Shown here: in pieces, positions 4,644-13,865 of the stretch
Numbering within the stretch: position 1 is the stretch's first letter
Layout: each line of letters starts with the position of its first letter
Assembly (NCBI GenBank): GCA_002162955.1
Contig: MABD01000018.1
Span: forward strand, 248,001 to 312,000
Length of the DNA stretch: 64,000 bases
Direction of reading: 5' to 3'
Origin: Gammaproteobacteria bacterium 45_16_T64
GTDB lineage: Bacteria; Pseudomonadota; Gammaproteobacteria; Pseudomonadales; Ketobacteraceae
The notes under the pieces: model-generated
Seen by the model: the letters and a program-made list of their open reading frames with translations, nothing else
Told to the model about the DNA's origin: nothing
Databases searched by the model: none
Program-made: the position numbers and the translations under genes

Positions 4644-4679
4644 TGCCCCCACGTTAACCACTCATCCCTTACGTTGAAT

Positions 4680-5585
4680 ATGCAGCAATATGTAGGTCGC
4701 TTTGCCCCCTCACCAACAGGCCCTCTCCATTTCGGCTCATTGCTCACTGCAGTAGCAAGCTACCTTGATGCAAAATCCAACGACGGTTTATGGCTGGTAC
4801 GAATTGAAGACCTAGACCCACCGAGAGAGATTCCCGGGGCTACGGCAAACATCCTATCCACACTGGAAAGCTATCACCTGCACTGGGATCAAGACGTTGT
4901 CTACCAAAGTCAACGCCACAAACATTATGACGCCGCTATTCAACAATTACTGTCTCGTGGCAAAGCCTTTTATTGTACCTGCACTCGTAAACAGCTCTCG
5001 CAACAATCCGAACAATCCGGGACAGCCTACCCTGGCAATTGCCGGGGGTGCTCGCAAGAACCCAGCGCCCCCCACAGCATACGCTTGCAGGTCAATGCCA
5101 AACCGGTGACCATTCAAGATGACCTACAGGGCCCATACCAACAGAACATTGAACAATATGTCGGGGATTTCATTATCCGGCGCAAAGACAAGCTGTACGC
5201 TTATCACATTGCCGTCGTAGTCGACGACCATGAACAGAAAATTAGCCATATCGTAAGAGGCATCGACCTGCTCGATAACACGCCAAGGCAACAATACTTA
5301 CAACATCAACTGGGGTTTCTTGCCCCGCAATATTGCCACCTCCCTATCGTCGTCAACTCACAGGGCCAAAAATTAAGCAAACAGACATTTGCCACTCCAG
5401 TCCCCAGCACACAGTGCAATCTCTATCTATGGCACGCCTTAACAGCACTCGGATTAGCACCCGCACCAGAACTCAAATTAGAAACGACTGAAACACAACT
5501 AGCTTGGGGTATCTCTGTCTGGAACAAGGACAAGCTTAAGGGGCTAAAATCGATTCCCTCCACCTCCGTCGCAATCGATGTATAA
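4680..5585 (+). CDS. gluQ: Glutamyl-Q tRNA(Asp) synthetase
   Basis: About 301 residues from ATG 4680; an in-frame TTG two codons earlier (4674) is an alternative. It is a catalytic-domain-only paralogue of glutamyl-tRNA synthetase: RFAPSPTGPLHFGSLLTA contains the HIGH-like HFGS motif, RIEDLDPPRE follows, and KLSKQT is the KMSKS-like loop. The zinc-site cysteines are in YCTCTRKQL and PGNCRGC. The anticodon-binding domain is absent, as expected. The enzyme attaches glutamate to queuosine at the wobble base of tRNA(Asp). Position directly after dksA is typical and expression likely depends on dksA read-through. Confidence 0.95.
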   Translation: MQQYVGRFAPSPTGPLHFGSLLTAVASYLDAKSNDGLWLVRIEDLDPPREIPGATANILSTLESYHLHWDQDVVYQSQRHKHYDAAIQQLLSRGKAFYCTCTRKQLSQQSEQSGTAYPGNCRGCSQEPSAPHSIRLQVNAKPVTIQDDLQGPYQQNIEQYVGDFIIRRKDKLYAYHIAVVVDDHEQKISHIVRGIDLLDNTPRQQYLQHQLGFLAPQYCHLPIVVNSQGQKLSKQTFATPVPSTQCNLYLWHALTALGLAPAPELKLETTETQLAWGISVWNKDKLKGLKSIPSTSVAIDV

Positions 5586-5634
5586 TCAATCCAACCGACT
5601 CGACAAACAATCTTGACAGAGTGCAAATCGAACC

Positions 5635-5811
5635 ATGTATATTGACCGACTTGTGTTACTTCTTATTGCAGGCGGATTCGTCTTATCACCTTCCATTATG
5701 CAATGGTGGGCTGAGGGTGGCACCGCGTGGTATAGGCCTTACTTAGTGTGGGCAATTCTGATCGGGCTCACGTTCTGGATCACCAAAAGTAGAGACCTAG
5801 ATGAGCTTTAG
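5635..5811 (+). CDS. cbrX: Small membrane protein upstream of cbrA (CbrX-like)
   Basis: A 58-residue frame, ATG 5635 to TAG 5811, begins MYIDRLVLLLIAGGFVLSPS and ends with a second hydrophobic stretch (YLVWAILIGLTFWIT) and a short charged tail. This suggests two short membrane segments. Its stop overlaps the cbrA start (ATGAGCTTTAG), a layout that implies translational coupling. From memory, a small gene named cbrX overlapping cbrA is described in Pseudomonas putida; position and size match, sequence identity was not checked. Its job is unknown, possibly only setting CbrA translation. Confidence 0.75.
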   Translation: MYIDRLVLLLIAGGFVLSPSIMQWWAEGGTAWYRPYLVWAILIGLTFWITKSRDLDEL

Positions 5812-8782
5812 TCTTACCCAAATATTTCTTATTGGCATCAGCTACCTTTCCTTTGTCTTTCTTGTCGCCTACTTTACCGAGCAAGGCTACTTACCGGCAA
5901 AGTTTGTTCGTCACCCCGCGGTCTACGTACTTTCCCTCGGCGTCTTTGCAAGTGCCTGGGCAATCTATGGAGCGGTAGGGTTCGCCAGCCGCTTTGGCTT
6001 TAACTTCATCGCTTACTACCTGGGGATATCAGCGGCCTTTATGTTGGGGCCGATACTACTTGCCCCCATCCTAAAACTCATCAAGAACTACCAGCTTGGC
6101 TCACTCGCCGACCTATTAGCCTTTCGCTATCGCAGCCCATGGGTTGGTGCATTAGTGACGCTTTGCATGCTCATTGGCATCATGCCCTTACTGGCACTGC
6201 AAATTCAGGCTGTCGCAGACACCATCCATATACTCAATCAAGAAACCTCCCCCAACACGTTAGCTTTTATATTCTGCTGTGTGATTATTTTGTTCGCCAT
6301 TTTATTTGGCGCTAGGCACATATCCACTCGGGATAAACATGAAGGCCTTGTTATCGCCATTGCGTTTGAATCCTTGATTAAGATTATCGGCATGGTCAGC
6401 ATTGGTATCTTTGTTTTATTCAATGTATTCGATGGCCCCACAGGGTTGCAGCAATGGCTTACTGACAATCCTTACGCCACTGAGACTCTGTACGCCCCGT
6501 TAAAAGAAGGCCCTTGGCGCAGTATTGTGGCGGCATTTTTCTTTTCAGCAGTCGTTACACCTCATATGTTCCATATGGCCTTTACTGAAAACCTGAACCC
6601 TCGAGCATTACTTACCGCAAGTTGGGGACTTCCTCTTTATCTATTCATTCTTGCTCTGCCCATTCCAATCATTCTGTGGAGCTCAACCATTGTCCAACCC
6701 GATGTGGCGGCCGAATACGTCACACTAGGCGTGCCGATGGCACTCAATTCACCGACTTTTTCATTAATAGCGTTTGTCACTGGCCTGTCCGCTTCTAGTG
6801 GCGTCATTATCGTCTGCACACTCGCATTGTCCGCCATGTGCTTAAACCACCTGGTACTCCCTCTATCCCCCGTAAATACTCAAAACAACCTCTATAGCTG
6901 GTTACTTTGGACAAGAAGAGCGCTGATCGCCTTTATTATCCTGGCCAGTTACATTATCTACCGCGTCATGGCTGGGCGGCATTCTTTATCTGAACTCGGC
7001 TTTTTAACTTTTGTCGCTACGATGCAGTTTGTACCAGGCCTTTTCGGTGTGCTTTTTTGGCCAAAAGCGAATCGATACGGCTTTATCACCGGACTACTTT
7101 CAGGTATCTCTGTATGGGTTTTCTTGCTCCTACTGCCCATACTGTTTGATTACCAAGTAACCATCAATATACCGCTATTGATACATGACACCTTTCCACA
7201 AGGAGATAATAGCTACTTAGCGGCAACTGTCGCCATTTTTGTCAATTGCATGGTGTTTGCCACCATTTCAGTCTTCACCAACGCTAGCACATCGGAAAAC
7301 CTCGCGGCAGAAACGTGCAACGTCGACAACCTGCGTCGCTCTTATCGATGGGAGCTTTCAGTAAGTAATAGTCGCGAGTTCATTGAGCGACTGACTAAAC
7401 CGCTAGGGGCAACCACCGCCCGAAGGGAGGTCGAACTTGCACTACATGACCTTGCGATGAGCCTTGATGAGACCCGCCCCTACTCTCTTCGACGTCTAAG
7501 AGACCAGCTAGAAACCAACCTATCGGGATTGCTAGGGCCATCCGTAGCGCATGAAATCATCGATGAAGCGCTACCCTATGTCATGCACTCCGACGAATCA
7601 GCAGTCCAAGATATCCACCATACCGAGAGCAGACTTGAGGAATATCATCACAAATTGACTGGCCTCGCGGCAGAACTCGATAACCTTCGCCGCTTTCACC
7701 GCCAAACCCTACAAGACTTGCCCATGGGTGTATGCTCCCTCGGCCTCGATGGCGAGGTATTCGGGTGGAACCACTCGATGGTTAAGATCACCAACATTCC
7801 TGTTGGCGACATTGTTGGCTCCAGCTTAGACCACCTACCCGAGCCTTGGCGCAGCCTGCTTCAACAACTCAGCGTCGGCCCAGAAACCCACGAATATAAA
7901 AAAGAAGTTGAATCCCAAGGCGTCACACGCTGGCTCAACCTCCATAAAGCGTCGATCAGAGCGGAGAATCAAACCAAATCCCACGGCGGCCTGGTTATCG
8001 TAGTTGAGGACCTCACAGAGACCCGCATGCTCGAACATAAACTCGCACACAATGAACGACTCGCCTCTGTAGGTCGACTTGCAGCAGGTGTCGCACATGA
8101 GATAGGCAACCCTATCACCGGTATCGCCTGCCTCGCTCAAAACCTTCAATATGAGTCTGACAACCCTGACATTGTTGAAATGTCCAATGAGATAGTAGAG
8201 CAGACCAAACGCGTGACACGCATCGTGCAATCCCTGGTGAATTTTAGTCATAGCGGCACAAACAAAGTCATTCAGGCTCCTGTTTCACTGAGAGAATGCG
8301 CTCAAGAAGCATTTGACCTTCTTAAATTAAGCGGCGACGAAAAAACAGAGAACTTTACTAACGACATTGATGCCGATCATATAATAAGTGGCGACAGACA
8401 GCGCATCACTCAAATATTTATCAATTTACTCAGCAATGCACGAGATGCTTCTAGCATCGACTCCCCCATTGTTACCCGAAGTGTTACCCGAAACCATACG
8501 GTAACTTTGGAAGTTGAAGACAGGGGCTGCGGGATTCCCGAAAACATTAAGGAAAGTATTTACGAACCTTTCGTTACCTCAAAAGACCCTGGAAAAGGCA
8601 CAGGACTAGGGATGGCGGTGGTATACAGCATTATCGAAGAACATTTTGGCCATATTTCTATCGACAGCCCTATCAGCACCGATTATAAAGGAACACGTGT
8701 TACCATAACGTTACCCCGTTACCGTGAAAATGACGAAATATCACCCAGCAACAACAATGGTGAGGAGAGCAACACCCTATGA
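5801..8782 (+). CDS. cbrA: Sensor histidine kinase CbrA with SLC5-type transporter domain
   Basis: 993 residues. Residues 1 to about 500 form a sodium/solute symporter (SLC5)-like domain with about 13 membrane segments. A linker with coiled coil (about 600-640) and a PAS domain (DLPMGVCSLGLDGEVFGWN) follow. Then come a dimerisation domain with phospho-acceptor His766 (AGVAHEIGNPITGI) and an ATPase domain (NLLSNARDAS N-box, DRGCGIPE G1, GKGTGLGMAVV G2). CbrA controls carbon and nitrogen source use in Pseudomonas with CbrB, and its transporter domain is reported to transport histidine. It overlaps the cbrX-like gene upstream and cbrB downstream (ATGA), so the three form one operon. No receiver domain is fused. 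Confidence 0.95.
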   Translation: MSFSLTQIFLIGISYLSFVFLVAYFTEQGYLPAKFVRHPAVYVLSLGVFASAWAIYGAVGFASRFGFNFIAYYLGISAAFMLGPILLAPILKLIKNYQLGSLADLLAFRYRSPWVGALVTLCMLIGIMPLLALQIQAVADTIHILNQETSPNTLAFIFCCVIILFAILFGARHISTRDKHEGLVIAIAFESLIKIIGMVSIGIFVLFNVFDGPTGLQQWLTDNPYATETLYAPLKEGPWRSIVAAFFFSAVVTPHMFHMAFTENLNPRALLTASWGLPLYLFILALPIPIILWSSTIVQPDVAAEYVTLGVPMALNSPTFSLIAFVTGLSASSGVIIVCTLALSAMCLNHLVLPLSPVNTQNNLYSWLLWTRRALIAFIILASYIIYRVMAGRHSLSELGFLTFVATMQFVPGLFGVLFWPKANRYGFITGLLSGISVWVFLLLLPILFDYQVTINIPLLIHDTFPQGDNSYLAATVAIFVNCMVFATISVFTNASTSENLAAETCNVDNLRRSYRWELSVSNSREFIERLTKPLGATTARREVELALHDLAMSLDETRPYSLRRLRDQLETNLSGLLGPSVAHEIIDEALPYVMHSDESAVQDIHHTESRLEEYHHKLTGLAAELDNLRRFHRQTLQDLPMGVCSLGLDGEVFGWNHSMVKITNIPVGDIVGSSLDHLPEPWRSLLQQLSVGPETHEYKKEVESQGVTRWLNLHKASIRAENQTKSHGGLVIVVEDLTETRMLEHKLAHNERLASVGRLAAGVAHEIGNPITGIACLAQNLQYESDNPDIVEMSNEIVEQTKRVTRIVQSLVNFSHSGTNKVIQAPVSLRECAQEAFDLLKLSGDEKTENFTNDIDADHIISGDRQRITQIFINLLSNARDASSIDSPIVTRSVTRNHTVTLEVEDRGCGIPENIKESIYEPFVTSKDPGKGTGLGMAVVYSIIEEHFGHISIDSPISTDYKGTRVTITLPRYRENDEISPSNNNGEESNTL

Positions 8783-10176
8783 GTCATATTTTGATTGTGG
8801 AAGATGAATCGGTCATTCGATCTGCACTACGCAGACTATTGACCCGGCACGACTACACTGTAAGCGAAGCTGGTGCTGTATCCGAGGCAGTTGACCAATA
8901 CAAACTTTCCGATTTTGACTTAATTATCACAGACTTAAGACTGCCCGGCGCACCAGGTACAGACATTATTCCGCTTGCAGAAGAAGTCCCTGTTCTAGTG
9001 ATGACCAGTTACGCTAGCCTGAAGTCTGCCGTTGACTCGATGAAAATGGGTGCCGTCGATTATATTGCAAAGCCCTTTGACCATGACGAGATGACACTGT
9101 CGGTGGAGCGAATCCTCAAGGAACGGGCGTTAGTAAGACAAAATGCAGCCCTCAAATCTGTCATCAATCGAGATTACCCCATTTCAGGTATGATCGGTGA
9201 ATGTGACGCGATGAAACTATTGTTTAAACGCATTAGCAAAGTCGCACCGACCGATAGCACCGTCTTAATCCAAGGGGAATCAGGAACAGGCAAAGAGCTC
9301 GTCGCCCGCGCCCTACACGAACAAAGCACCCGCGCAGGGGGACCGATGATATCGGTCAATTGCGCAGCCATCCCCGACACGCTAATCGAATCAGAGCTAT
9401 TTGGTTACGAAAAAGGCGCTTTTACCGGTGCCAACACCAACCGAAAAGGCTTGGTAGAGGCTGCTGACGGTGGCTCATTATTCTTGGATGAAATCGGCGA
9501 ACTCCCGCTAGAAGCTCAAGCCCGGTTACTCAGAGTTCTACAAGAGAAAGAAGTCCGGCGCATCGGCTCCGTACAAGCAAAAACTGTGAACGTAAGGCTA
9601 ATGGCAGCCACACATAGAGACTTAAAAGCTTTATCTAAAACAGGCCAATTCAGAGAGGATTTGTACTACCGCCTTCATGTAGTTGACCTAAAGCTTCCCG
9701 CCCTGCGAGAACGAGAAGACGACATTCAGAAATTGGCTGAATCACTCCTAGAGCGGACGGGAAACCGAATGAACACCCCGAACCTCTTCTTTAGTAAAGA
9801 CGCCTTGCTTGCCATCAATCACTATAACTGGCCAGGAAATGTACGCGAATTAGAGAATGCCATTGAACGCGCCGTGATTCTTTGTGAAAGCGAAGAAATC
9901 AGCCAAGAGTTATTAGCAATTGACGTCAACATTAGCCAGTTAAAGCACCCCAATACCACCTCAATTAGAAGCACACCACAATTCACCCCCGAAACAACAG
10001 ATCCTGAAGAGGACCTATCCCTCGAAGACTACTTCCAACATTTTGTCCTAGACCATCAAGACCAGATGACCGAGACAGAGTTAGCACAAAAGCTCGGTAT
10101 TAGCCGCAAATGCCTTTGGGAAAGAAGACAGCGCCTTGGTATTCCCCGCAAAAAGCCCGCCATCAAACAAGCCTGA
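8779..10176 (+). CDS. cbrB: Sigma-54-dependent response regulator CbrB
   Basis: 465 residues with NtrC-type architecture: a receiver domain (1-115; phospho-acceptor Asp52 in IITDLRLPG), an AAA+ domain with Walker A GESGTGKE, the sigma-54 contact loop GAFTGAN, GGSLFLDEIGELP (Walker B) and an arginine-rich sensor region, then a Fis-like helix-turn-helix (ETELAQKLGISRKCLWERRQ). Starts inside cbrA (4-bp overlap), so it is the cognate regulator. In Pseudomonas CbrB activates the small RNA crcZ from a sigma-54 promoter located before pcnB; the matching promoter and RNA are present here at 11980-12351, making that the likely main target. Confidence 0.96.
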   Translation: MSHILIVEDESVIRSALRRLLTRHDYTVSEAGAVSEAVDQYKLSDFDLIITDLRLPGAPGTDIIPLAEEVPVLVMTSYASLKSAVDSMKMGAVDYIAKPFDHDEMTLSVERILKERALVRQNAALKSVINRDYPISGMIGECDAMKLLFKRISKVAPTDSTVLIQGESGTGKELVARALHEQSTRAGGPMISVNCAAIPDTLIESELFGYEKGAFTGANTNRKGLVEAADGGSLFLDEIGELPLEAQARLLRVLQEKEVRRIGSVQAKTVNVRLMAATHRDLKALSKTGQFREDLYYRLHVVDLKLPALREREDDIQKLAESLLERTGNRMNTPNLFFSKDALLAINHYNWPGNVRELENAIERAVILCESEEISQELLAIDVNISQLKHPNTTSIRSTPQFTPETTDPEEDLSLEDYFQHFVLDHQDQMTETELAQKLGISRKCLWERRQRLGIPRKKPAIKQA

Positions 10177-10228
10177 CACTAACCTAATTAGCGTAAGGCT
10201 ATTAATACCCATTAACACTTGATATATA

Positions 10229-10256
10229 TTCTCATTTGCACTACATTATCATCATT
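10229..10256. promoter_or_regulatory. Fur-like box upstream of bfd
   Basis: The region TTCTCATTTGCAC plus ACATTATCATCATT, 24-51 bp before the bfd start, resembles overlapping halves of the iron repressor consensus (GATAATGATAATCATTATC). bfd is a classic Fur target, induced by low iron. The match is imperfect and was judged by eye. Confidence 0.5.
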
Positions 10257-10279
10257 GAATTTAATGTAGGAGAAACACC

Positions 10280-10492
10280 ATGGTCGTTTGTATTTGCAAT
10301 CGCATAAACGACAGAGATATTCGCAACGCTATTCACGAAGGCGCCAGCAGCTTTAGTGACGTGCGCGAGACTCTTGGTGTGGGTAGTTGTTGTGGACAAT
10401 GCGCCCCGTTTGCAAAAGAGCTTGTCGACGACACAATCTCTCAATTACAAATCTCCCAGAATTACAATCTTGCTTATGAGGCTAAAGTATAA
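10280..10492 (+). CDS. bfd: Bacterioferritin-associated ferredoxin Bfd
   Basis: 70 residues with cysteines at 4, 6, 38 and 41 (MVVCICNR... and GSCCGQC), exactly the [2Fe-2S] ligand pattern of Bfd. The helical body DVRETLGVGSCCGQCAPFA matches the family. Bfd passes electrons to bacterioferritin heme to release stored iron. ATG 10280 follows a good ribosome site (GTAGGAGAAACACC). It is placed just before two bacterioferritin genes, though a 145-bp gap suggests separate promoters, as expected because bfd is normally iron-repressed and bfr iron-induced. A Fur-like site lies upstream. Confidence 0.96.
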   Translation: MVVCICNRINDRDIRNAIHEGASSFSDVRETLGVGSCCGQCAPFAKELVDDTISQLQISQNYNLAYEAKV

Positions 10493-10636
10493 CCACCTGA
10501 TAAATTAGACTTAAAATTCACCAACTGTTCTATTTACTCCTTAAGAACATAGACTAAACTAGTAGCTGGTTTAGCGACCATTTATTGTTCGCAAAAAGCC
10601 AAAAACTAAATTTAGTGACCTCTTAAGGAGACGACA

Positions 10637-11107
10637 GTGAAAGGCGATCCCAAAGCCCTTGAACTTCTCAATGCCAATCTTGGCAACAAACTCATTTCCA
10701 TCAATCAGTACTTCCTGCACGCCCGCATGTTTAAGAATTGGGGCTTCGGCGAATTAAACGAACACGAATACAAGAAATCCATTGTCGAGATGAAAGATGC
10801 CGACAAACTGATTGAACGCATTCTTTTCCTTGAAGGTCTACCCAACCTACAGAAGCTCGGCAAGCTGCTGATCGGTGAAACCCCCGAAGAAATGCTCAGT
10901 TGCGACCTCACCTTGCAAACCAATATCCGCTCCGACCTAGTAGACGGCATCGCCACCTGCGAAAGCATCGGCGATTACGTAAGTCGCGATCTTCTTGAAG
11001 ACATCCTCGAATCCGATGAAGAGCATATTGACTGGATCGAAACCCAACAACATCTTATCTCCAACGTTGGCCTAGAAAACTACCTACAATCCATGATGGA
11101 TAGCTAA
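10637..11107 (+). CDS. bfr: Bacterioferritin subunit, heme-binding type with degraded ferroxidase centre
   Basis: 156 residues from GTG 10637, preceded by TAAGGAG at 7 bp. Overall strongly bacterioferritin ([39 protein letters not shown]). Met52, the axial heme ligand, is present (VEMKDAD). By counting, four ferroxidase ligands differ from the E18/E51/H54/E94/E127/H130 set: Lys18, Asp54, Gln94 and Asp127; Glu51 and His130 remain. This subunit therefore probably binds heme but cannot oxidise iron well by itself. It is followed 14 bp later by a second bfr with the opposite pattern, implying a mixed 24-mer, as known for paired bfr genes in Neisseria and Pseudomonas putida. Confidence 0.93.
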
Positions 11108-11121
11108 AAGGAGCACACACT

Positions 11122-11589
11122 ATGAAAGGCACTCCAGTAGTCATTGACTCCCTGAACTATCTTCTAGCAGGAGAGTTAGCAGCCATGGATCAGTACTTTA
11201 TTCACTCCCGCATGTATGAAGACTGGGGCTTGAGTAAACTTTACGAGCGCATCGGTCACGAAATGCAAGATGAGACAGAGCACGCAGACCACCTGATCAA
11301 ACGTATACTGTTCCTAGAGGGAACGCCTGACCTCACTACTCGCCCTCCTATCAACGTAGGGTCAACCGTACCCGAAATGCTACAAAGCGATCTAAACTTG
11401 GAGTACAAAGTAGTCAAAGACTTAAGAGAGTCTATTGCCCTATGCGAAAAGGAGCGAGATTACGAAACCCGGGAAATCCTAGAGAAAATGCTTGAAGACA
11501 CTGAAGTTGACCACGCCTATTGGCTTGAGCAGCAACTAGGGCTCATCAAGCGCATCGGCCTACAAAACTACCAACAGTCACAAATGTAA
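11122..11589 (+). CDS. bfr: Bacterioferritin subunit, ferroxidase type lacking the heme methionine
   Basis: 155 residues, ATG 11122 with AAAGGAGC upstream, 14 bp after the first subunit. Ferroxidase ligands Glu18, Glu51, His54, Glu94, and a Glu/His pair three apart in [13 protein letters not shown] (Glu128, His131) are intact. Position 52 is Thr instead of the heme-ligating Met, so this subunit can oxidise Fe(II) but should not form the intersubunit heme site alone. It complements the upstream subunit. Iron entering the shell would be oxidised here, and release via heme and Bfd would depend on the partner. A long hairpin follows at 11602-11644. Confidence 0.95.
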
Positions 11590-11601
11590 CCCACAGCCAT
11601 A

Positions 11602-11644
11602 CCATCACTAAGGCAATAGCGTCAATTTTTTGCCTTAATGATGG
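11602..11644 (+). terminator. Long hairpin after bfr (terminator-like or mRNA 3' stabiliser)
   Basis: CCATCACTAAGGCAA and TTGCCTTAATGATGG form a 15-bp stem with one mismatch around a 13-nt loop. A T-rich loop but no downstream T-run means classical termination in the plus direction is uncertain. Confidence 0.55.
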
Positions 11645-11811
11645 CACCCCACGCCGTCAAAATACCTCCCATCACTTCGCAACACATTTTTTGTCCCCAG
11701 CCTATTTATTGACACATCCTTATCTTTCACCACCCTTTCCGTACCAAGCGATGGAAATCTAACCAAATTACCCCAAAATTTTAGCGCAATTAACCTTTCG
11801 ACTCCTGCCGA

Positions 11812-11896
11812 GTAACAACTTAAGTAACACAAAGTTCCCGAATAATTTGTTACGGTGTTACCGCAGAGGAAACACTTTTAGTCGAAAGAGGTAACA
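11812..11896. promoter_or_regulatory. Cluster of TGTTAC/GTAACA hexamers, candidate CbrB upstream activating sites
   Basis: GTAACA occurs at 11812-11817, 11824-11829 and 11891-11896; TGTTAC at 11848-11853 and 11856-11861. Five exact hexamers in 85 bp end about 85 bp before a sigma-54 promoter, the expected place for enhancer sites. From memory, inverted TGTTAC hexamers were proposed as the CbrB recognition element in P. putida; the spacing here is not identical and was not tested. Confidence 0.65.
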
Positions 11897-11979
11897 AAAT
11901 ATTGTCAATTTCACCCCACCCCATCAAGCAGAATTCATAACTCATTGTTTTATAAGGATATTGTGTTTTCTTGAAAAGC

Positions 11980-11995
11980 TGGCACGGGATCTGCT
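11980..11995 (+). promoter_or_regulatory. Sigma-54 promoter of the CrcZ-like RNA
   Basis: TGGCACGGGATCTGCT matches the consensus TGGCACGN4TTGCW at 14 of the 15 letters that matter except one (C for the first T of TTGC), with exact GG-to-GC spacing. The predicted start is about 12 nt downstream of the GC, near 12006, directly at the onset of an A-rich non-coding stretch. Confidence 0.85.
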
Positions 11996-12005
11996 TTATA
12001 TATTA

Positions 12006-12351
12006 CGTAACCGCAGCGGGGCGAAACAAAAACAATAAGCGCTTTGTAACGGTGACAACAAAATAAAAATAAGAAACAAGCAATAATAATAAAAATAGCA
12101 CTAACAAAAATAATAACTGACAATAATAACAATAATTACTAACAATAAAAAACACTCTAGAAAGACAGATCAACAACAATAATAAATAGATCAATTTAAA
12201 AATAATAATAAATAACGCTAAAACAATAAAAAGAGTCGGCACATAAAAGAACTGGATCTAAGGATCCAGTTCAAAAAACAAATACTCATCTGTAATAAAA
12301 AAAATAAATAGCAGATTATGAAAGGGAGAGCTTAACCGCTCTCCCTTTTTT
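12006..12351 (+). ncRNA. crcZ: CrcZ-like Hfq-sequestering small RNA
   Basis: This approximately 345-nt non-coding stretch lies between a sigma-54 promoter and a strong terminator, in the cbrB-pcnB interval where Pseudomonas crcZ (about 400 nt) is located. It contains at least ten A-rich runs such as AACAATAA (12030s), AACAAAAATAATAA (around 12103-12116), AATAATAACAATAA (12122-12135), AACAACAATAATAA (12172-12185) and AATAATAATAAATAA (12202-12216). These are the (ARN)n/CA-type motifs bound by the distal face of Hfq with Crc. A perfect 10-bp hairpin (12249-12272, loop TAAG) interrupts them. Predicted role: transcribed by CbrB when preferred carbon is scarce, it titrates Hfq/Crc and relieves catabolite repression. 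Hfq and Crc are not in the window. Start and end are predictions. Confidence 0.82.
12321..12351 (+). terminator. Intrinsic terminator of the CrcZ-like RNA
   Basis: AAAGGGAGAG and CTCTCCCTTT pair as a 10-bp stem around CTTAACCG, followed by a run of T. It ends the A-rich RNA and isolates it from pcnB, which starts about 165 bp later. Confidence 0.9.
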
Positions 12352-12515
12352 ACATCCTCAAATTTCCTCATCAGCAACACCAGATTAGTCAAAACCCGCC
12401 TTTCACCAAGTCATTGAAAAAAATAGACGTTTTGTAACGTGTATACCAGTGCTAAACTGTGGCCAAATTGACCTAACTTCATTTGAACCACCCCAATACA
12501 GGTGCAGCGCTACCC

Positions 12516-13865
12516 ATGCCAAAACGGCTGATCAAAAAAATCAAAAAAATCATCACGCGAGGCAACACCCCAGATGGGAACATGCCCGTCATCATTGGCG
12601 CGAACCGGCATTCTTTTGATCCTAGCCTAGCAAGCCCCAATGCGATCAGGGTGGTCGATACGCTGACTAAGGCTGGTTACGAAGCATATTTGGTCGGTGG
12701 CTGTGTAAGGGATGGGCTGCTTGACCTTGACCCTAAGGACTTCGATGTATCCACCGATGCACACCCAGAAGAAATTAAGGCGTTGTTCCGCAACTGCCGG
12801 CTCATTGGGCGCCGATTTCGACTAGCCCACATCCGATATGGGCGCGAAATAATCGAAGTTGCCACCTTTAGAGGTAGCCATAGTAACGCCTCTAGCGACC
12901 AGCAATCCTCGACCTCAGATCACGGAATGCTATTACGAGACAATGTGTTCGGCAACCTTGATGAAGACGCTGTGCGCAGGGACTTTACCGCTAACGCCCT
13001 CTATTATCGCCACGAAGACCAGGCCATTGTTGACTATGTCAATGGGTTTGAAGACATCCAGAATCGCTGTTTACGCCTCATCGGCGACCCTGAGCTGCGC
13101 TACAAAGAAGACCCCGTACGAATGCTAAGGGCTATACGCTTTAGTGCAAAACTGGACTTCGATTTAAGCGATGAGACAGAAGCACCTATTCGTGATCATT
13201 CCGAGTTGCTCGGCTTGATCCCCGCAGCCCGGCTATTTGATGAAGTTCAAAAGCTCTTTATGTCAGGTGTCGCGGTAACGGTATGGGATCTATTGCAGCA
13301 CTACGACCTTGCCCGATGGTTATTTCCTAGCTCTGTAGAATCTAAAAACAAGCACCCAGGCGCCATGGGCATGATTGATCAAGCAATGATCAACACTGAT
13401 GAACGAATAGCGTCAGGAAAGTCCGTCACCCCCGCATTCTTTTATGCCGTAATGCTGTGGGGGCCACTGCAAACCCACTGGGAAAAGCTCAAACGCGATG
13501 GCATTCCGCCCGTCCCAGCCTTACAGCAAGCTATCCAGCGCACCCTGCAACAACAGGCTAAACACACCACCATTCCTAAACGCTTTGTCACGACTATCCG
13601 AGAAATTTGGGAACTACAACCAAGGCTCACTCGTCGTCACATCAAGCGTGCACAACAGCTTGTAGAGCATCAACGCTTTCGTGCAGCCTACGACTTATTA
13701 CTACTTAGAGAGCAGGCCGAGGAAACACCAGCAGGTCTCGGGGAGTGGTGGACGGAGTTTCAACACGCAGACCCTGTAGCACAAAAAGCCCTTGCAGCTG
13801 ACCACGCACAACCCAGAAAAAAACGCCGACCACCTCGGCGCAAGCGTCGTGATAACCAACAATGA
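12516..13865 (+). CDS. pcnB: Poly(A) polymerase I
   Basis: About 449 residues from ATG 12516; an in-frame TTG at 12483 would add 11 residues. N-terminal basic stretch (KRLIKKIKKI), then the nucleotidyltransferase head AYLVGGCVRDGLLDLDPKDFDVSTDA with the GG and DxD catalytic motifs, the RRFRLAHIRYG and RRDFTANALYY segments, and the neck RLIGDPELRYKEDPVRMLRAIRF. The C-terminus is very basic (RKKRRPPRRKRR), typical of PcnB rather than CCA-adding enzyme. It adds poly(A) tails that promote RNA decay. folK overlaps its stop, so the two are co-translated. This start is weakly supported; unusual starts are known for pcnB. Confidence 0.95.
   Translation: MPKRLIKKIKKIITRGNTPDGNMPVIIGANRHSFDPSLASPNAIRVVDTLTKAGYEAYLVGGCVRDGLLDLDPKDFDVSTDAHPEEIKALFRNCRLIGRRFRLAHIRYGREIIEVATFRGSHSNASSDQQSSTSDHGMLLRDNVFGNLDEDAVRRDFTANALYYRHEDQAIVDYVNGFEDIQNRCLRLIGDPELRYKEDPVRMLRAIRFSAKLDFDLSDETEAPIRDHSELLGLIPAARLFDEVQKLFMSGVAVTVWDLLQHYDLARWLFPSSVESKNKHPGAMGMIDQAMINTDERIASGKSVTPAFFYAVMLWGPLQTHWEKLKRDGIPPVPALQQAIQRTLQQQAKHTTIPKRFVTTIREIWELQPRLTRRHIKRAQQLVEHQRFRAAYDLLLLREQAEETPAGLGEWWTEFQHADPVAQKALAADHAQPRKKRRPPRRKRRDNQQ

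Follow-up and report, generated by a model that had tools for sequence, protein, structure and literature searches.

The window, that is the whole 64-kb (64,000-nucleotide) stretch of DNA analyzed here, belongs to a 6.49-Mb draft genome (58 contigs, 97% complete). It contains the following genes and features:

5801–8782, + strand: cbrA, encoding a 993-aa histidine kinase (PAS, HisKA and HATPase_c matches) whose N-terminal part is long
8779–10176, + strand: cbrB, encoding a response regulator of the sigma-54-dependent type that has the conserved CbrB C-terminus
10280–10492, + strand: bfd, between cbrB and the RNA
10637–11107 and 11122–11589, + strand: two ferritin-like/bfr genes, between cbrB and the RNA
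11602–11644, + strand: terminator-like inverted repeat 3' of bfr (−18.6 kcal/mol)
11812–11817, + strand: GTAACA, putative CbrB subsite (sequence match)
11824–11829, + strand: GTAACA, putative CbrB subsite (sequence match)
11848–11853, + strand: TGTTAC, putative CbrB subsite at −132 (−131 to −135 in most members of the window family)
11856–11861, + strand: TGTTAC, putative CbrB subsite (sequence match)
11891–11896, + strand: GTAACA, putative CbrB subsite at −89 (−88 to −90 in the window family)
11938–11950, − strand: IHF-like site at −42 relative to the promoter, differing from the consensus by one mismatch
11980–11995, + strand: sigma-54 promoter TGGCACGGGATCTGCT (sequence match)
12006–12353, + strand: predicted untranslated A-rich CrcZ-like RNA, its start predicted from the promoter
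Within 12025–12308, + strand: ten (A-R-N)n≥4 runs from a motif scan of the RNA, at 12025–39, 12062–76, 12079–99, 12103–17, 12122–36, 12141–52, 12172–86, 12198–212, 12222–36 and 12294–308
12235–12242, + strand: conserved 8-mer GTCGGCAC
12249–12272, + strand: perfect 10-bp hairpin
12288–12316, + strand: small stem with an ARN run in its loop (predicted fold)
12320–12351, + strand: conserved intrinsic terminator
12516–13865, + strand: pcnB, encoding poly(A) polymerase (the listed ORF starts at TTG 12483)

In E. coli (L277), gluQ adjoins pcnB; in the window (4674–13865), cbrAB and the RNA lie between these two genes. The CbrB C-terminus is 92% identical to that of the Pseudomonas-type genome G034. 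The N-terminal part of CbrA of the window gives no transporter family match at 1e-5. In Pseudomonas, this part of CbrA carries an SLC5 transporter-like domain. GTAACA/TGTTAC hexamers are also present at 8470, 8482 and 8698, close to the 3' end of cbrA and shortly upstream of cbrB; these may point to CbrB autoregulation or be due to chance.

The bfd gene and the two bfr genes lie between cbrB and the RNA, as originally predicted, and are seen only in the window genome: tblastn found this insert in none of 50 relatives' regions and none of 80 named loci, which places it outside the conserved unit. The insert-free regions include those of the congeners G004 (L034) and G003 (L117), and the contig of G001 stops before the RNA. 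The terminator-like repeat at 11602–11644 could limit read-through into the RNA. In P. putida, read-through from the cbrB promoter holds basal crcZ levels high, according to the available text of PMC8871633; the insert and its terminator may lower such read-through here.

Promoter region and predicted RNA

Five GTAACA/TGTTAC hexamers can be read inside 85 bp upstream of the RNA, followed by the sigma-54 promoter, in agreement with the original prediction for both. The window holds 33 such hexamers in total, and when 33 hexamers were placed at random, five fell within 85 bp in 0 of 20,000 trials. The IHF-like site, recognized at the level of the consensus, is located between the subsites and the promoter. 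This layout matches that given for P. putida crcZ, crcY and PP2810 in the available portions of PMC6296734, which also describe an IHF site for crcZ and crcY. IHF-like sites with at most one mismatch occur in 22 of 41 relatives' regions (3.9 expected by shuffling) and in 57 of 78 named loci (2.2 expected), and recur at a set position in the relatives. The position is −32 in most named loci, in contrast to −42 in the window, and the site is not universal even in the window family (L035 has two mismatches). Hexamers are located at about −104 and −124 in most Pseudomonas loci, and Halomonas has two exact hexamers at −80 and −125.

The predicted RNA (348 nt, 52% A) corresponds well to the A-rich non-coding stretch of about 345 nt first proposed. 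No + strand ORF of at least 20 aa starts inside it; two + strand ORFs (25 and 31 aa) begin upstream of the predicted start site and extend into it. The ten or more AAYAAY-type runs previously noticed are borne out by 17 overlapping AAYAAY motifs (z 7.3; none of 200 dinucleotide shuffles as high) and the ten (A-R-N)n≥4 runs, so that at the level of sequence the predicted transcript is an untranslated RNA with several such runs. In the predicted fold (−61.5 kcal/mol versus a shuffle mean of −29.7; z −8.9), 150 of the 153 ARN-run residues are unpaired. The perfect 10-bp hairpin and the T-tailed terminator of the original prediction are both found, the latter as a predicted-fold hairpin (12320–12349) overlapping the T run, although a consensus terminator scanner missed it and listed only the 12249–12272 stem, on the − strand.

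Comparison with the Rfam CrcZ model (RF01675), a check proposed at the outset, gave 22.6 bits, aligned to model positions 255–380 (the 3' part of its 398 positions) with E-values of 7e-4 and 3e-4. The gathering score is 95 bits, and nothing in the 64-kb window reaches it. The control, L045 (the G034 locus), scored 306.8 bits, and the other 15 of 16 relatives' loci scanned fall below the cut-off. The RNA is thus CrcZ-type by anatomy and synteny, but not an RF01675 member by score.

Conservation and distribution of the CbrB-associated unit

The 3' parts of 12 window-family RNAs were aligned (alignment A3), without G005 (L044), which showed no 3' element. Both the 10-bp hairpin (five of eight counted pairs changed on both sides) and the terminator show compensatory changes. 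In the two hairpins together, 8 of 18 pairs are changed on both sides and 98.6% of cells are paired; the covariation score is reached by none of 500 shuffles and drops from 0.302 to 0.089 upon a one-column slide, shuffles being a weak control for sequences as closely related as these. Further standard pair types give no support for structure, as 462 of 500 shuffles reach the same level. The 8-mer GTCGGCAC is kept in 11 of the 12 aligned RNAs, with GTCGGCAT at its place in G004, and G005, outside the alignment, shows none. Among the 80 named loci, it is present only in L117, L123 and L124, and in no Pseudomonas or Halomonas locus; L123 is a member of another family. This 8-mer is possibly a pairing seed or a protein site. 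The AAYAAY surplus is shared by nine window-family relatives with a called RNA end (L034–L039 and L041–L043; z 6.4–10.5) and by L117 (z 5.8). The terminator finder is too strict outside the window family, where most rows have no call, and lengths and z-scores are therefore restricted to RNAs whose end was called.

A CbrB search matched all 57 relatives' genomes at E ≤ 1e-50, paralogues included, and 50 relatives' regions were taken around the best matches. cbrA is present in 45 of these 50, and pcnB lies 3' of cbrB in 38. The named loci are the best 80 of at least 467 loci confirmed by a CbrB C-terminal signature; they are an uneven sample of the order, mostly from Pseudomonas, with Stutzerimonas, Halomonas, Litchfieldella, Bisbaumannia, Chromohalobacter and uncultured bacteria, and a few duplicate the genomes G001, G003, G006 and G035. 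In 79 of these best 80, pcnB is downstream of cbrB.

Counting the window, 41 of 51 relatives' regions have a sigma-54 site accompanied by one or more hexamers 3' of cbrB, as do 78 of the best 80 named loci. No scoring promoter with a hexamer was found in the other ten regions (L033, L048, L053, L061, L066, L073, L075, L076, L077 and L079, of which L033, L053, L061 and L073 are cut by contig ends) and in two named loci (L116, at a contig end, and L182). At least 200 nt downstream of the promoter can be read in 118 of the 119 promoter-bearing loci, with 2–19 AAYAAY motifs in up to 400 nt; in L064, the promoter is followed by a short gap without AAYAAY, and this locus was dropped from the ARN-run counts. 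In L040, L041 and L044 of the window family as well as in L063 and L074, cbrB is followed by the promoter and the A-rich stretch, and no pcnB was found within the 5–6 kb fetched downstream. The window genome does not score as a Pseudomonas, its nearest named locus being that of an unclassified gammaproteobacterium, and the CbrB–RNA system thus extends to another lineage, as the original prediction had proposed for this case.

A spaced pattern (GTAACA, 72–100 nt, TGGCAY-N6-TGCW) occurs in 201 of 293 genomes of the order, as against 56 of 293 for a wrong-spacing control whose spacer is shorter by one base. Some true loci escape the pattern: in G016, the promoter was read directly and there is no pattern match. 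Four matches occur in the window genome, one being the cbrB–pcnB locus itself. The other three were rejected as second copies, since, judged by eye, the candidate on contig C50 precedes a fliL-like gene and the remaining two are coding.

Two good sigma-54 promoters are present in the cbrB–pcnB gap of four relatives (G025, G050, G042 and G019). In L049, L057, L058 and L072, the two promoters of this gap are several hundred bases apart, possibly marking tandem copies of the RNA unit that recall CrcZ/CrcY; comparable pairs also turn up among the genome-wide matches to the spaced pattern. In L078, L081 and L082, gluQ is directly 5' of cbrB and no cbrA was found, leaving CbrB without a kinase at the locus.

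CbrB itself is not confined to the order: among 274 genomes of the class, 36 carry its C-terminal signature, and 33 of these carriers lie outside the order. In the 20 of these 33 loci that were read, the hexamer-bearing sites have at most two AAYAAY motifs in the next 400 nt, as judged from the two best sigma-54 sites per locus and with at least two of the 20 stretches being short (L257 and L264). In L259, L267 and L269, a CbrB-like gene is followed by sigma-54-like sites with hexamers and no A-rich stretch.

Hfq and Crc in the window family and the order

hfq is present in the window genome and in all 30 genomes asked. The Hfq core is conserved in the window family apart from changes such as Tyr25Phe: position 25 is Phe in this family and Tyr in the Pseudomonas-type genomes G034 and G106. 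Phe25 is also found in the Crc-bearing G051, G050 and G020.

Of the two genes that the original prediction wished to see in the genome, hfq exists and crc was not found. TIGR00633 finds a single protein in the window genome, XthA, with exonuclease III (1ako) as the best PDB match (2.6e-116), and no nuclease-dead ExoIII relative of the Crc type known from Hfq/Crc catabolite repression. Among 20 genomes, four window-family members have one TIGR00633 match each and 15 of the 16 others at least two; the second type in G034 (L108), used as a positive control, is Crc (PDB 4jg3, E 1.4e-155). A search with Crc alignment A1 found nuclease-dead Crc in none of 15 window-family genomes. Twelve of them match only at the XthA-like level (E 1e-22 to 1e-27), G006 (54% complete) and G012 give no match at all, and the lone strong match, in G005, keeps all checked catalytic residues. 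No crc was found in G007, a single-contig genome of this family.

The catalytic residues are not all kept in 10 of a first 30 and 20 of a later 29 proteins (59 checked; L253 is incomplete). Crc-like proteins with intact exonuclease catalytic residues are found elsewhere in the order (L095, L102, L238 and others), and G017, G037 and G043 have such a catalytic protein and a nuclease-dead Crc side by side. Co-occurrence of the two forms hints at how Crc arose.

Crc and the promoter pattern were tallied by hand over the 293 genomes, with a Crc-type cut-off of E ≤ 1e-40 and kinship ignored. There is no Crc-type match in 52 genomes, 11 of them in the window family. The promoter pattern occurs in 10 of these 11, in 8 of the 41 Crc-less genomes outside the family (19.5%, versus a control rate of 19.1%), and in 183 of the 241 genomes with a Crc-type match, catalytic forms included. 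These counts suggest that, outside the window family, the RNA promoter and Crc tend to co-occur or to be jointly absent, and the window family is the clear exception. Some Crc-less genomes are also without a close CbrB (G032, G038 and G054). The promoter and A-rich stretch are present without nuclease-dead Crc in G035, G039, G045 and G030, whose best Crc-type match is catalytic, and without any Crc-type match in G046 and G016 (75% complete).

(A-R-N)n≥4 runs were counted in stretches of up to 400 nt, with G006 and G035 each counted twice, and mean residuals were taken after regression on G+C content. The median is 7.5 in the window family (n = 14, range 6–14; residual +2.7), 6 in Pseudomonas and the other named loci (n = 67, 4–6; +0.2), 6 in Halomonadaceae (n = 8, 4–8; +0.1), 3 in other Crc-bearing relatives (n = 22, 2–6; −2.0) and 5 in other Crc-less relatives (n = 7, 2–7; −1.0). 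Surplus ARN runs are a trait of the window family, not of Crc-less lineages, and a general rule that pairs Crc loss with more ARN motifs is contradicted by the counts in the other families.

In a four-protein tree (43 taxa, rooted with E. coli; only loci with three or four of these proteins included), G039, G056, G030, G035 and nine window-family members form one group of 13 taxa (support 83) that nests inside Crc-bearing lineages, and G031, which is without nuclease-dead Crc, is placed elsewhere. In a CbrB tree, for which G040 was chosen as the root, G046, G048, G045, G035, G039, G056 and G016 group with the window family, and G030, G041 and G031 are placed elsewhere. The simplest reading is that Crc was lost in an ancestor of the grouped Crc-less taxa. 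Alternatively, it may be primitively absent from them, given that backbone supports are only 24–66.

A candidate Hfq decoy and competing explanations

The RNA of the window resembles CrcZ (Pseudomonas, RF01675) and CrcY (P. putida, Azotobacter) in its position 3' of cbrB, the GTAACA/TGTTAC subsites and IHF-like site of its sigma-54 promoter, its length (348 nt, the Rfam model having 398 positions), its ARN motifs, its terminator and the presence of hfq in the genome. The same place, the same promoter parts in the same order and the same class of ARN motif, along with a weak Rfam match in its 3' portion and a chain of relatives that extends to Pseudomonas itself, support the CrcZ-like reading put forward originally. 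It differs from CrcZ in its low score for RF01675, the position of its IHF-like site, the bfd–bfr–bfr insert, the GUCGGCAC element and the Crc that was not found in the genome or its family. The ARN repeats do outnumber those of CrcZ, as was expected, at ten runs, where 400-nt stretches of named Pseudomonas-type loci have a median of six; the original figure of five or so CA motifs for CrcZ itself gives way to the six (A-R-N)n≥4 repeats reported for P. aeruginosa in the available part of PMC4063720. RsmY/RsmZ and CsrB/CsrC, which according to the same source are repeated-motif RNAs that titrate a global translational repressor, are similar in principle, whereas the target here would be the A-rich-RNA face of Hfq and not CsrA/RsmA. 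The ARN motif of the window RNA differs from the GGA motif of those RNAs.

We consider it probable that the RNA is a CbrB/sigma-54-driven Hfq decoy, a counterpart of crcZ that would be broadly distributed in the order and would work here without Crc. Upon carbon limitation, CbrA would activate CbrB, which would bind the GTAACA/TGTTAC cluster and activate the sigma-54 promoter, probably with the aid of DNA bending by IHF. The RNA would then draw Hfq off the A-rich translation starts of catabolic mRNAs, allowing these mRNAs to be translated. Transcription, the dependence on CbrB, IHF and sigma-54, Hfq binding and the effect on catabolic mRNAs are what we infer from the sequence. In P. aeruginosa, CrcZ sequesters Hfq via the distal face, with Crc as an auxiliary factor (PMC4063720, in the portion available); as the circuit of the window family has no detectable Crc, the decoy would act on Hfq itself. 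Phe25 of the window-family Hfq counts against the decoy, because Tyr25 of P. aeruginosa Hfq is needed for CrcZ binding, as indicated by the Y25D mutant in the same portion of that paper. So do the low RF01675 score, the Crc-less genomes outside the window family that carry the promoter pattern at about the control rate, the ten relatives' regions in which no hexamer-bearing promoter was found, the AAYAAY-free gap of L064 and the draft state of the window genome.

The strongest competitor, which we nevertheless regard as unlikely, is a CbrB/sigma-54-controlled RNA whose main partner is not the Hfq distal face, and which exerts its effect by base pairing (via the GUCGGCAC 8-mer, for instance) or by binding another protein. 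Retention of GUCGGCAC in 11 of 12 aligned window-family RNAs, the Crc that was not found and Phe25 of Hfq would all fit such an RNA. The unpaired ARN runs, in numbers far above those of shuffles, argue for the Hfq decoy instead, as does a motif class shared with CrcZ, which the available text of PMC4063720 presents as a proven Hfq decoy; in addition, the 8-mer is confined to three of the 80 named loci.

Much less probable are two further explanations. The RNA might be the 5' end of the pcnB transcript and regulate pcnB in cis, pcnB being directly downstream and co-oriented both in the window and in most other loci. Such a leader is hard to reconcile with the conserved terminator and T run before pcnB, with the two promoters in the gap of some relatives, and with the five loci that have the promoter and A-rich stretch and no pcnB in 5–6 kb. 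It is similarly improbable that the RNA is a relic, a CrcZ in decay within a lineage from which Crc has been lost. Apart from the Crc that was not found, decay of this kind would agree with two Crc-less relatives, G056, which has no sigma-54 promoter in the cbrB–pcnB gap, and G048, in which no hexamer-bearing sigma-54 promoter was found 3' of cbrB; yet conservation in the window family covers the promoter, the subsites, the hairpins and the ARN runs, with compensatory changes, and its ARN runs are no fewer than in Pseudomonas. A functionless low-complexity A-rich spacer misread as an RNA would fit A-rich DNA being common and the RNA being a prediction; this explanation is hardly credible, as the shuffle tests, the covariation, the recurrence 3' of cbrB and the promoter pattern all speak against it.

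The decoy reading can be widened to one in which the RNA switch under CbrAB and sigma-54 serves the whole order as an Hfq decoy without any need for Crc, and for this joint reading as a whole we see the case as evenly balanced. It holds that the window family and single genomes of the further families f22, f26, f33, f3, f32 and f17 keep the decoy with no nuclease-dead Crc found, and that Crc was lost in their common ancestor or, conversely, joined an already existing Hfq-decoy circuit in other lineages. It also holds that the extra ARN runs and GUCGGCAC of the window family may reflect a broader titration of Hfq than in Pseudomonas.

CbrAB and crcZ have been described as exclusive to Pseudomonas and Azotobacter or to Pseudomonadaceae (PMC8871633 and PMC6296734, in their available text), and a 2022 review, as far as its available text goes, calls them unique to Pseudomonadaceae. 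cbrAB transcripts have been recorded in a mesopelagic seawater metatranscriptome, where the accessible passages do not name the hosts or mention Crc (PMC5073097), and in the accessible parts of the open-licence literature on Halomonas, Marinobacter and marine genera we found no CrcZ-type RNA described for bacteria other than Pseudomonadaceae. Contrary to the Pseudomonas/Azotobacter-only view, the CbrB–RNA unit recurs in most of the relatives' regions read across the order, cultured Halomonas and Chromohalobacter included. In the window family, a decoy RNA and Hfq, apparently without Crc, would make a natural lineage in which to test directly how far Hfq alone can carry carbon catabolite repression, and whether the circuit acquired Crc only late.
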